From NCBI GenBank assembly GCA_913057205.1, contig CAJXNO010000002.1, forward strand, positions 62,001 to 126,000: 64,000 nucleotides of DNA, written 5' to 3'. The translations under genes were made by a program, and so were the position numbers. This stretch comes from an uncultured Flavobacteriales bacterium. GTDB lineage: Bacteria > Bacteroidota > Bacteroidia > Flavobacteriales_G > Salibacteraceae. Every line of letters begins with the position of its first letter. Positions within the stretch are counted from its first letter, which is position 1. The notes beneath the pieces were generated by a model. It worked only from the letters and a program-made list of their open reading frames with translations. It was not told the origin of the DNA and ran no database searches. Below are positions 2,025 to 6,718 of the stretch, in pieces.

Positions 2025-2810
2025 CTATTCACACCCCCCTTCCTCGTCCAAACAGGCACGCTCAATCTCAATATCGCCTTCCTCTTCAGGTTTGCAGGCG
2101 AAATCGATCTGGGTAACGTTCAAGCGGATGTAACTGGACGCAATGGTCCGTATGGGCCAATCGCAAAATGACGTGTCATCCAATTGCTTCTCTAGTGCCC
2201 TGCCTTGGCATGCATCGTCTTCCAGATCCAATTGCTCGATGGCTTTGATCAAACAAGGCTTGCTGCTGGCTCCGCCAAGCGAGCCCAGAGTCAGTGCTTC
2301 TCCATTTGACCAGTCTACGGCTTGATCGTGTTGGTTTTGCTTAAAGCGTTTCATGCCATTGCTTCGCGTGGCGTGCAGGTGTTGATGATTGAAAAACGGC
2401 TCCCGATCATCAGGAAAGCCTACGCTGTGAATGTGCATGTCAACCTCGTGCGGGGTTGCAGCAAAATTGGCTTTGCTCATTCCTAGTCTGTTCCGGAGCA
2501 GCTCTAATAAGGCATCAGGACCTAAGAATGCATCATCGCTTATCGCTGGTAGCGCAGTCAGTGCTTCAAAACGGTTGGTGTCTTGGAATGCCTTGAGCCG
2601 ATAGCCCTCACGAAACCTTGTCTCCAACAATATGGCGGCCGTATCGTTGGGGTGTGCCTCAAATACAGGGTATTCATGCACAATGAAATAGGTCAATGAA
2701 TCGTCGCGAAAAACGCCCGCCTCAATAACGTATCGATAATTGAGGTGGCTTTGCGTAAAGGCCGATCCAGCCCAGAGAAAGATCAGCACAAACAAGTAGT
2801 TCTTAAGCAT
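2025..2810 (-). CDS. Secreted protein of unknown function
   Basis: Encodes 261 residues with a clear signal peptide (MLKNYLFVLIFLWAGSAFTQ), so it is exported. I do not recognise the family. The body is hydrophilic and His-rich around the middle (HEVDMHIHSVG, then FFNHQHLHATRSNG). It has several cysteines in the C-terminal third (CLIKA, DDACQG, SFCDW, FACKPEEE) and ends with an acidic, Cys-containing tail (ACLDEEGGCE). It is monocistronic between a repeat region and a divergently transcribed gene. The start is the only ATG before the signal peptide. Confidence 0.7.
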   Translation of the reverse strand: MLKNYLFVLIFLWAGSAFTQSHLNYRYVIEAGVFRDDSLTYFIVHEYPVFEAHPNDTAAILLETRFREGYRLKAFQDTNRFEALTALPAISDDAFLGPDALLELLRNRLGMSKANFAATPHEVDMHIHSVGFPDDREPFFNHQHLHATRSNGMKRFKQNQHDQAVDWSNGEALTLGSLGGASSKPCLIKAIEQLDLEDDACQGRALEKQLDDTSFCDWPIRTIASSYIRLNVTQIDFACKPEEEGDIEIERACLDEEGGCE

Positions 2811-2872: not shown

Positions 2873-3403
2873 GTGTTTAAGCACCTGACCCTACCCTGCT
2901 TCCTTATGCTGCTTTGCTGCGGAGCCGTGCCTTCATTGCACGCCCAAGACATGAGCAACTCCTTTGACTTTGCAGAGCGTCTAAGTCCGCTTGAAGTGGT
3001 GCACAACATGGATGACCTCCTACTCCCTACGCGCCTCGAGGCCATGGAGTCTGGTCGACTCAACGACTACCTTGCCTACCTCAACGTTGCCAAAAGCTTT
3101 GTGCATGCGGAGCGTTACCATGAAGCTCAGAAAGCCTACATCGAAACCGTGGGTGTGATCTGGAAGGATAAGGATCAAAGCAAACTGATCGCACAACTCG
3201 AGCGGGAGCTGACCAAGGCCGATGCGCAGATGATGACCGATCAGCGTCCCTCTGGACTGGATGAAAACTACCAACCGGTCCGTTCCAGCGATCGAAGGCA
3301 AGAACAATTTGCTTCGAGCTACTCACCGCAGAGCGCAGGCAACAAGATCGATGAGATGATGCAGTTCTTGATCGATGCGGTGTACCGTGATAAAGCTGCA
3401 TAG
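2873..3403 (+). CDS. Secreted repeat protein, N-terminal part of a gene interrupted by an in-frame TAG
   Basis: Encodes 176 residues from a GTG start with a signal peptide (FKHLTLPCFLMLLCCGAVPS, cleavage near LHAQ). The mature part has a helical TPR-like segment (YLAYLNVAKSFVHAERYHEA). The reading frame ends at a TAG at 3401-3403 and continues open in the same frame for 242 more codons. The segment after the stop lacks any signal peptide and repeats the same helical motif (LKYCRHLVEMEEYEAARKAY), so the two halves almost certainly formed one protein of about 419 residues. No ATG fits the signal peptide, so the GTG start is accepted. Function unknown. Confidence 0.65.
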   Translation: MFKHLTLPCFLMLLCCGAVPSLHAQDMSNSFDFAERLSPLEVVHNMDDLLLPTRLEAMESGRLNDYLAYLNVAKSFVHAERYHEAQKAYIETVGVIWKDKDQSKLIAQLERELTKADAQMMTDQRPSGLDENYQPVRSSDRRQEQFASSYSPQSAGNKIDEMMQFLIDAVYRDKAA

Positions 3404-4132
3404 TTGACCCTCGTGGGGGAATTGAAGTACTGCCGACACTTGGTTGAGATGGAGGAGTATGAAGCGGCACGAAAGGCCTATCACACAGCCATCCTTGCGC
3501 ACCTTTATCCCAAGTGGACCGGTAGCCTGTTGGAAGACATCAACAAAGTAATCGCGCGAACGGAACCCTTCACCACACCTTCAGAAGCCAATCCTGGTAT
3601 GTCATTGAGTCAAGCACAAGCCCTGGCTGAGGTGCGTAGCTTACTGATTCCGGTGATGGACTACTACGAAGGAAACATTCCACTAGAAGATGGCATCCGA
3701 AGGTTCATGGAACGCTTGGCGGAAGGCGACCTTAACGGTTCGTTCGAGTTGCTGGAACGCACCTTAGAACCCTTTGCTACGAACGACTGGATCGAAGGAC
3801 GCAGTGAGCGTATGCGTATGATCCTGAACAGAGCCCAGCCAGAAAAGCCAAATGAAACCGTAGCTCCAATGGCTGAGCTAGCTATAAAGGCAGAAGACAT
3901 CCGCTACAGTAAAGAAGAAATGGAAGGTAGAACCGTTGAACGCCTTCAACTCGAAGAGGCGCATGAAAACATGACCTACAAAAAAGTAAAGCACCGGTGG
4001 GGTGGTGTTTATTACTTCATCAATGATGAGCCTACGAAGGATACGGAATGGTTACGGGGGTGGAGGAGCTATCAGAACCAAGAAGGAATCTTGGATCCCG
4101 GTTTGGGATCTCCTACGGTCAAGCAGTACTGA
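3404..4132 (+). CDS. C-terminal part of the same interrupted secreted repeat protein
   Basis: This is the in-frame continuation after the TAG at 3401-3403. It starts directly with TTG (3404) and the first ATG is at 3449, inside a predicted helix. Translated alone it would give a cytoplasmic protein, since no export signal is present, whereas the upstream half carries the signal peptide. It contains TPR-like helices (LVEMEEYEAARKAYHTAILA, then LIPVMDYYEGNIPLEDGIRR). The last third is basic and aromatic-rich (KVKHRWGGVYYFINDEP). Recoding, readthrough and recent nonsense mutation are all possible. A separately initiated protein is least likely. Confidence 0.6.
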   Translation: MTLVGELKYCRHLVEMEEYEAARKAYHTAILAHLYPKWTGSLLEDINKVIARTEPFTTPSEANPGMSLSQAQALAEVRSLLIPVMDYYEGNIPLEDGIRRFMERLAEGDLNGSFELLERTLEPFATNDWIEGRSERMRMILNRAQPEKPNETVAPMAELAIKAEDIRYSKEEMEGRTVERLQLEEAHENMTYKKVKHRWGGVYYFINDEPTKDTEWLRGWRSYQNQEGILDPGLGSPTVKQY

Positions 4133-4183: not shown

Positions 4184-4555
4184 CTAGAGGTAAGATCGTA
4201 GTGAATCAAAAGGGACATCCTTGAGACGCGCATAACGCACATAGTAAACGAACTTCCGCTCCCCTTTTTGTAGAAGCTGATCCGGGTCTATGAGCAGGTG
4301 TCCCTGCTGAAAACCAAACTCCACCCCTTCGTAACTTCTTTGCTTTCCCCAATACACGCCTCCCGGCCAGAGGTAGCAAATCCCTTTATGCTTACGGAAG
4401 AAGGGCACATTGTAAGATAGTTTCTCTGAGACTTCAGGGATACAATCAAAAACCAACTGCCGAGGCGCTTCCGTGATCTCACGTTCGTGCTCCGGCAGAT
4501 GATCTAAACAGTCTTCAACGTTCCTGAATCGAACGTTCTGCATGGGCTTCCCCAT
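4184..4555 (-). CDS. DUF1801 (YdhG-like) domain protein
   Basis: Encodes 123 residues, the usual length of the small DUF1801 family. Typical features are VFDCIPEVSEKLSYNVPFFR (the conserved region with Pro-x-Phe), followed by YLWPGGVYWGK and a C-terminal VYYVRYARLKDVP segment. The family resembles frataxin-like folds and is cytoplasmic; its biochemical role is not established. It sits 5 bases downstream of the DUF2911 gene on the same strand, so the two are probably cotranscribed. Confidence 0.8.
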   Translation of the reverse strand: MGKPMQNVRFRNVEDCLDHLPEHEREITEAPRQLVFDCIPEVSEKLSYNVPFFRKHKGICYLWPGGVYWGKQRSYEGVEFGFQQGHLLIDPDQLLQKGERKFVYYVRYARLKDVPFDSLRSYL

Positions 4556-4560
4556 AGGTG

Positions 4561-5070
4561 CTATGGCATGGGTTGCACGTTAAAGCTAACGGCTACCTTC
4601 TCCCATTTGAGGTTTACTTTATCCTTTCCTACTTCAAACATCATCTGTTCTTGGTGCTTGCCTGTTGTTGGCTTCACCTCTACGCGTAAGGCGTCCATGT
4701 CTGCATTGTACTTGTACGCTCCCCACTGCTTCGGATCCTTATTGAAGATGATGGTCCAGGTTTCCTCACCAGGGATGGTGAACAAAGCATAGGTTCCAGC
4801 TTCCAAAGCGTTATCACCTTCGATCATGATGTTCTTGTCTGTCGTAAAGCGGGTAGCTTCGTTTGCTCCGGTTCTCCATACTTTATCGTAAGGCACCAAA
4901 TCTCCCCATACCGCCCGATCACGAACGGATGGTGCGTTGTACTCAATGGTGATCTTGGTATCGCCGATCATTCCCTCTGCGGTTTGTGGAGGACTCAATG
5001 GCTTGTCTTGTGCAAAAGCGGCACTTGAAAGGAGCAGTGCACTTGCGATGAAAATGTTCTTAAAGGTCAT
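4561..5070 (-). CDS. DUF2911 domain secreted protein
   Basis: Encodes 169 residues with a signal peptide (MTFKNIFIASALLLSSAAFA, then Q). The core matches the Bacteroidota-enriched DUF2911 family: ITIEYNAPSVRDRAVWGDLV, PYDKVWRTGANEATRFTT, and GTYALFTIPGEETWTIIFNK. The length is typical for a single-domain member. It is predicted to be periplasmic or surface-exposed, and no activity is established for the family. It is first in a probable two-gene unit with the DUF1801 gene. Confidence 0.88.
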   Translation of the reverse strand: MTFKNIFIASALLLSSAAFAQDKPLSPPQTAEGMIGDTKITIEYNAPSVRDRAVWGDLVPYDKVWRTGANEATRFTTDKNIMIEGDNALEAGTYALFTIPGEETWTIIFNKDPKQWGAYKYNADMDALRVEVKPTTGKHQEQMMFEVGKDKVNLKWEKVAVSFNVQPMP

Positions 5071-5122
5071 GTGATTTGAATTTTGAGCAAATTACGATTT
5101 ATGTGATTAGGATGATGAAACC

Positions 5123-6718
5123 TCATCGCATGGCCGTTTGTTCGCTCGCCTCCATGTTGGCCTTATCCGCTAGGTATTGCTCCACGCGGTGGTCAGCCCA
5201 ATTCCATTCTTTCCAAGAGCGTTCATCCTGGTATTCAGCAAATGCCGCCATCCGTTCCTGAAGACGTGCATGAAACTGTTCTGCGGATATGTATTGCGCT
5301 TCGTCTGGAAAGCGCTCGTTCCGCTTTTCCTCGATCTCCTTTAACCGCTCCAACGGTAGGTCTAAGTAAGGAAAGCTCTCAAAGTTCATCCGGATCAGGA
5401 AGTCGAAATGAACAAAAGCGGTATCGGCGTGGGCCATGTTGTAGCGTGCGATGAAGGGATCCCAGCTGATGCTTGCACTCAAGAGGAAGACCAACAATAC
5501 CGCCATGGAATTGGTACGCAACAGGTAGTACAACCGCTTTCGATGCAGCACCTTCCAGAGCACCGTGAAGAGTCCAAAGAGCACCAAGGCTAAAAAGAAC
5601 ATCACCGCTATGCGCTTGTAGGCCAGGTTGAAGTATTCAATGTAATACAGGTTTCTCCGCACCACCGATAGCGCCAAAAACCCATTCTGAGCGATCCAGA
5701 TGATGGTGAGCTTGCGCAGCAATGGACTGTGAAGAAAGTTGAGGTTACCCCGATAATAGTAAAGGGTAATGGCAATGGATATGAAGATGCTCAACACCAG
5801 CAACCAGGTGCCTTCATGTACAAATTGCTTGAGGTAGTCGCCGTTCCACTCAAATCCGATCCATACGTACCAAAGGTCAAACGCATTCAAGATCAGAAGC
5901 AATAGGTTCAATCCAAGGAGGAGGAAAATAGCAGATCGCCATTCGTGCTTAAGTCCCATGAGTGAAATCCCCTGCAGCACGGGTTGGCGTTGGCGCAACA
6001 TGGTTTCCTGTTGTTTAGACTCCCATTGCTGCAATTGTTCCCAAGCAGCGGGCGTAAGGGCGTAAACGCTCATCACTAAGCCCAGCACAAACAAGGCCAG
6101 CCATTGCATGTTAACCATCCCTTTCACCCAAACGAAGAAAGAATGCATGTATGCACTGAAGTTCCCCAAATAGCTTTCAAACCATGGATTAGCGGCGCTG
6201 TAGATCCAAACGAAAAGCAAGATGATAAGAACCGGAGCCATGAAATAGTAGTACCGAAGGTATTTCCCGAGTTTGCTACTGGAATCCTTTTGAAAAAGGA
6301 ACAGGTCTCTCAAGGTATTGATCGCAGCGAGCAGTGCCTGGGCAGCGGTTTGAAGCATCAAGGTGAAGGCCGAACGCAATTGCGGTGAACTGCTTGCAGA
6401 AACAAAGAAGCCACACCAAATGAGGCTCACAACAAAGGTCCAGCCACTAGGGTGTAACACTACAGAAACAGCCGAAAGCAAGACACCAGCTGCTCCCACA
6501 TAGGTCAAGCGTTGAAATCGATCGCGGTACAAGAAGAACATGGAAACAACGGTAGCCAATACGAAGAGCAACCAGTTCAAGCCGGGATAGGCATCGAAGA
6601 ACAAATAACTAAAGAGCAGGGCGAGCGAGAGGATGAAGACGAAACGCATACGGACAAGTTTGGGGTTGTATGCGCTCAATAACGTCATGCTGATCAGCTT
6701 AGTACATCGGTTTATCAC
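5123..6718 (-). CDS. DUF4173-type integral membrane protein
   Basis: Encodes 531 residues with about a dozen hydrophobic segments in the first 420 residues (for example FVFILSLALLFSYLFF and WLLVLSIFISIAITLYYYRG). These are followed by a soluble, charged C-terminal domain of about 110 residues (LERLKEIEEKRNERFPDEAQ). The motif RRNLYYIEYFNLAYKRIAVM after the transmembrane core fits the DUF4153/DUF4173 family common in Bacteroidota. The start overlaps the stop of the upstream TRIC-channel gene by 4 bases, implying coupled translation. An internal ATG at 6688 is also possible. The function is unknown. Confidence 0.75.
   Translation of the reverse strand: MINRCTKLISMTLLSAYNPKLVRMRFVFILSLALLFSYLFFDAYPGLNWLLFVLATVVSMFFLYRDRFQRLTYVGAAGVLLSAVSVVLHPSGWTFVVSLIWCGFFVSASSSPQLRSAFTLMLQTAAQALLAAINTLRDLFLFQKDSSSKLGKYLRYYYFMAPVLIILLFVWIYSAANPWFESYLGNFSAYMHSFFVWVKGMVNMQWLALFVLGLVMSVYALTPAAWEQLQQWESKQQETMLRQRQPVLQGISLMGLKHEWRSAIFLLLGLNLLLLILNAFDLWYVWIGFEWNGDYLKQFVHEGTWLLVLSIFISIAITLYYYRGNLNFLHSPLLRKLTIIWIAQNGFLALSVVRRNLYYIEYFNLAYKRIAVMFFLALVLFGLFTVLWKVLHRKRLYYLLRTNSMAVLLVFLLSASISWDPFIARYNMAHADTAFVHFDFLIRMNFESFPYLDLPLERLKEIEEKRNERFPDEAQYISAEQFHARLQERMAAFAEYQDERSWKEWNWADHRVEQYLADKANMEASEQTAMR

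Follow-up and report, generated by a model that had tools for sequence, protein, structure and literature searches.

A single in-frame TAG in a secreted helical-repeat gene of a marine Flavobacteriales bacterium is probably a recent nonsense mutation

Belinky et al. (2021, PMC7918605) argue that bacteria commonly have conserved in-frame stop codons, that these are often short-lived, and that in-frame stops often lie in genes that are still under constraint. Our literature search for pseudogenes in Salibacteraceae found no reports. The stop described here comes from the genome of a marine bacterium (G000; 2.83 Mb in 68 contigs, completeness given as 99.94%). The stretch that was analysed, bases 62001–126000 of contig 2 (64,000 nucleotides), is referred to as the window, and the relatives used for comparison were metagenome-assembled Flavobacteriales.

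On the forward strand, a frame opened by a GTG at position 2873 meets a TAG at 3401–3403, its codon 177, and then runs on through 242 sense codons (3404–4129) to a TGA at 4130–4132. A sequence-only reading had pointed out this open stretch after the stop, and both frame reading and codon usage bear it out: the probability of 242 open codons arising by chance from base composition is ~7e-5, and the codon-usage signal is 0.19 log units per codon both upstream and downstream of the TAG. The five other frames at the locus score from -0.25 to 0.07, and 16 other genes of the window from 0.07 to 0.29. The upstream part (2873–3403) comprises 176 codons and has a hydrophobic, signal-like N-terminus, identified by eye; according to an AlphaFold model, it covers repeat unit 1 plus the opening helix of unit 2. 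The remainder of unit 2 lies in the downstream part (3404–4132), followed by a third helical unit and a C-terminal beta module. By itself, a lone stop separating two ORFs of one frame is not unusual: in 464 kb of the same genome, at least 30 coding-like codons follow in frame after 42 of the 362 ORFs of at least 120 codons, and most of these are presumed to be genes in tandem. The present case rests on the homologues.

When 60 genomes were searched with the downstream half, orthologues appeared in six of the 12 other genomes of the genus and nowhere else, at 37–39% identity over both halves; the remaining matches involved mainly the last 50–60 residues, a module common to other proteins. The upstream half, searched against the 13 genus genomes, recovered the identical six (eight of the 13 genomes appeared at E values of up to 1; seven were counted, and G010, at E 0.38, was dropped). 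Four of the orthologues are uninterrupted single ORFs, of 407 (G006), 408 (G007), 405 (G003) and 332 residues (G001), the last being without most of the third helical group. All four align over both halves, which upholds the earlier proposal that the two window ORFs are one split protein of about 419 residues, and no relative that corresponds to just the downstream part and has a conserved start of its own was found in the 60 genomes. A 286-residue frame (G007:C46) with 24% identity over residues 14–224 of the downstream half is read, from its length class and a paralogue in G000, as a different secreted protein that carries the same C-terminal module. Because intact and differently broken orthologues exist, the two hypothetical proteins of the window appear to be one broken, formerly single gene. 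None of the five relatives that could be aligned at the TAG column has the stop; they have K, K, K, R and Q. The earlier suggestion that the codon was CAG before the mutation is not settled by these residues.

The gene is missing from six of the 13 genus genomes and is thus dispensable. The six are 78, 94, 89, 82, 86 and 92% complete; four fall below 90%, and some of the absences may be gaps. Gene order at the locus is kept in five of the six genomes with an orthologue and in three of the four with an uninterrupted one; the neighbors differ in G001. One flank carries what we take to be a topoisomerase subunit gene and a gene for a UPF0126-type membrane protein. On the opposite flank, the conserved loci have a divergently oriented gene for a secreted protein, which is missing in G009. 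In the window, this neighbor lies at 2025–2810 on the reverse strand, encodes 261 residues with a signal-like N-terminus, and is syntenic in four other genomes. Its identity to its relatives is 23–30% (window 2025–2810, L026 5140–6008), and it is thus evolving faster than the main gene. A structure model of the neighbor protein was poor (pLDDT 54.5) and was discarded.

The neighbor is present in five of the 13 genus genomes, and every one of them also has the main gene. In G009, where the main gene is frameshifted, ~700 bases of the neighbor are deleted, a double loss that resembles the loss of a two-gene module. Surface proteins are often under changing selection. Together, the independent losses of the main gene and the loss of the neighbor in one species suggest that the two genes work together and that both are under changing selection.

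The structure of the read-through protein was modeled with AlphaFold using five relatives (mean pLDDT 72, pTM 0.46). The predicted helices fall into three groups (residues 39–120, 152–228 and 247–319), followed by five strands and one helix at 344–403. The sequence-only reading had also noticed that a helical motif of the first half recurs in the second; consistent with that observation, the best local match pairs residues 37–121 with 150–231, and 18 of 1000 shuffles of the window protein equaled it. In the same test on five other homologues, 0, 55, 119, 133 and 631 of 1000 shuffles equaled the real match. Profiles built from six homologues placed units 1 and 2 in register over 80 columns (hhalign; P ~1e-4, with a probability of only 29%). 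Support from single sequences is thus mixed, and the third group matched unit 2 by single sequence in some relatives only and did not match it by profile. The TAG, residue 177, falls within a predicted helix (174–192) after the first helix of group 2. The idea that it marks a natural domain boundary was therefore rejected. The gene family gave no Pfam or NCBIfam match above cut-off, the PDB no significant match by sequence or by Foldseek, and a plasmid search no match.

Do other copies of the gene show similar damage? Three of the seven are broken, by three different lesions. The window copy has the TAG; G011 has a TGA in frame at codon 56; and G009 (L006 961–2181) has lost one base in codon 172, as numbered in G007, which lies six codons upstream of the TAG column. 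The G011 and G009 copies come from separate assemblies. Flags of “1 TAG” or “1 TAA” in relatives, considered as possible shared internal stops, turned out to be terminal stops. In the downstream frame of G009, an ATG stands near the deletion, at the position of a threonine codon of G007. Over 13.3 kb aligned between G007 and G009, no further frameshift occurs within any ORF. Another G009 gene, within the 120 kb of G009 DNA compared, contains stops and frame changes (joined G006 ORF at 4323–6092 versus joined G009 95,211–95,520), so there may be an assembly error in G009. That the TAG and the G009 deletion, in different species, are no more than six codons apart hints weakly at a point where a break is tolerated.

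The divergence among copies bears on the age of the break. At the locus, G007 and G009 share 84% DNA identity, with differences mostly at silent sites; dN/dS is 0.07 and 0.04 for the two halves, values that are rough given a dS of ~1 and that omit a few codons around the G009 deletion. These low ratios suggest that the gene was constrained for most of the separate history of G007 and G009. The window copy is 37–39% identical to the others, and G007 and G003, whose flanking genes are at a similar distance, share 43%; its nearest relatives are saturated at synonymous sites. The age of the break was bounded from the frame itself. The window gene has 418 sense codons, in which a stop could arise by any of 178 single-base changes, and the absence of a second stop corresponds to fewer than ~0.05–0.06 neutral substitutions per site since the break (5% level, whole gene), or 0.08–0.10 for the downstream half alone, presuming that selection has not guarded the frame. 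On that presumption, there has been little neutral drift, and the break is recent.

From these data, we consider a recent nonsense mutation at codon 177, arising in this lineage in a dispensable, fast-evolving secreted gene, to be the probable explanation. Most likely, the locus reflects ordinary recent gene decay and not a new way of reading a stop. Of the three causes left open by the sequence-only reading (recent mutation, sequence error and readthrough), the first is the best supported, and readthrough is without positive support. The original gene would have encoded a secreted protein made of all-helical repeats and ending in a beta module, and a nonsense mutation at codon 177 would recently have inactivated it in this lineage. 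Release factor 1 would end translation at the TAG, leaving a 176-residue preprotein. This would keep unit 1 and little of unit 2; unit 3 and the C-terminal module would be gone. Such a product would probably be unfit for the original job, and the downstream half would be at most poorly translated. The intact protein may loosely be pictured as an exported helical scaffold that acts with the divergent neighbor, either in the envelope or extracellularly. Counting against decay, both halves are still coding-like and a second lesion is absent; selection on a read-through or a two-part product would have the same outcome.

Two of the rival explanations invoke such products. If the TAG were suppressed at a low rate, some full-length protein would be made, and the stop would lower expression without killing the gene. 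The downstream frame, open, coding-like and free of further lesions, fits such leaky readthrough, and Belinky et al. (PMC7918605) contend that conserved in-frame stops occur commonly, and often only briefly, in bacteria. We regard leaky readthrough as unlikely, and rate it no lower because, according to the same study, in-frame stops are often found in still-constrained genes. The genome itself speaks for a TAG that is an ordinary terminator. Release factor 1 is present, pyrrolysyl-tRNA synthetase (PylS) was sought and not found, and no CUA anticodon occurs among the 33 tRNAs found, a list that is incomplete in that it lacks tRNA-Asp and tRNA-His. The lack of these two in a 99.94%-complete genome is itself unusual; they were probably unassembled or missed. 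TAG terminates 118 of the 362 ORFs of at least 120 codons in 464 kb, and coding-like extensions of at least 30 codons follow 15 of these 118, 20 of 133 TAA-ended and 7 of 111 TGA-ended ORFs; there is thus no TAG-specific excess of coding-like sequence downstream over TAA or TGA. On these results, genome-wide reassignment or suppression of TAG was rejected. RNA structure around the TAG is within chance (z 0.54), with no sign of a programmed readthrough structure, and the stop is absent from its column in all five aligned relatives. A related scenario, in which several species of the genus have repeatedly switched the gene off by different lesions, two of them within six codons in the second repeat, and the TAG here serves as a leaky dimmer that passes some full-length protein, is quite unlikely. 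Alternatively, the gene could have been split, with a second chain re-initiated at the TTG directly 3' of the TAG and the two chains assembling into a working protein. The TTG is a possible start, and in G009, whose break is six codons off, the downstream frame has an ATG close to this position. However, the TTG encodes a leucine that is kept in four of the five aligned relatives, and a start function is thus not needed to explain it; no signal peptide would be present on the second chain; and the 60 genomes hold no free-standing downstream half. Moreover, a break within repeat unit 2, leaving helix 152–170 behind, is an unlikely place for a natural split. We judge this explanation very unlikely.

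The remaining alternative, a sequence or assembly error at 3401, would be confined to a single assembly, one of 68 contigs. Polished assemblies seldom carry single-base substitution errors of this sort, and the broken copies in two relatives derive from separate assemblies. The window also offers an internal control. Orthologues in syntenic DNA were found for 42 of its 63 ORFs of at least 80 residues, which represent 41 genes, as two of the ORFs are the halves of this gene. Only two in-frame stops with homology running on past them occur among the 41: the TAG at 3401–3403 and a stop at 4184–4186. In this count, flagged stops at match overruns of ORF ends or starts or in small overlapping ORFs were excluded by coordinates alone; four flags in G007, a pair close to the N-terminus of one gene and a pair where another gene begins, are read as start-site differences. 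The assembly is thus not error-ridden, and an error at 3401 has little probability. The stop at 4184–4186 is a TAG in the next gene, a DUF1801-family member on the reverse strand, and is followed by 15 in-frame codons, ~12 of which can be aligned to the C-terminal ends of the orthologous proteins in G007 and G009. It marks a further, smaller truncation at 0.8 kb from the main one. It was this second TAG that led us to examine suppression more widely, with nothing TAG-specific emerging.

The TAG truncation also takes off a C-terminal module of ~60 residues. In the window, the module region spans approximately residues 341–419 (3893–4129, forward strand; profile match at 3914–4066) and is common to other secreted proteins of the order. 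The module (consensus around YKKVxHxWGGxYYFxND) forms the end of signal-bearing proteins that are otherwise unlike one another (further loci: L028 3076–5925, L029 2735–3562 and L030 85–1872). Of 42 genomes in the order, 41 carry it, with up to eight copies each, as does one of 117 other genomes of the phylum at E 1e-8. In all 13 loci read, it ends 2–11 codons from the stop. Thirteen module sequences gave only chance matches in Pfam and NCBIfam, and matched no known model there of the type IX secretion C-terminal sorting domain; the PDB gave no match to the module. It may be an as yet unnamed domain or sorting tag that is specific to the order, and it may merit more attention than the stop codon.

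For annotation, the consequence is small: two hypothetical proteins become a single broken gene whose orthologues in the genus are defined. For biology, the same secreted gene has been lost repeatedly and independently (three of seven copies broken; absent in six of 13 genomes). Readthrough, if true, would add one more natural stop used for lowering expression.

How does the locus compare with known systems? Like tetratricopeptide repeat (TPR) proteins, the protein has consecutive predicted helices arranged in repeats. Unlike them, it reaches the cut-off of no TPR model (the best scores, 13–15 bits, were in the two relatives scanned, with none listed for the window protein; cut-offs 27 and 32.7), and Foldseek gave no significant match in the PDB. 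It resembles the stops kept in functional prokaryotic genes, as treated in PMC7918605, in that the TAG lies within a gene that is coding-like on both sides. In those cases, however, the stop can be common to several species and dN/dS is measured around it, whereas the window TAG occurs in no relative and the window copy has no relative close enough for such a measurement. Young nonsense pseudogenes differ from the locus only in the gene family itself, which is without a Pfam or NCBIfam match above cut-off. The likeness is otherwise extensive: the frame is interrupted by one stop and shows no further decay, intact copies exist in relatives, the gene is distributed patchily over the genus, and other relatives are broken in other ways. 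The finding is ordinary in kind.
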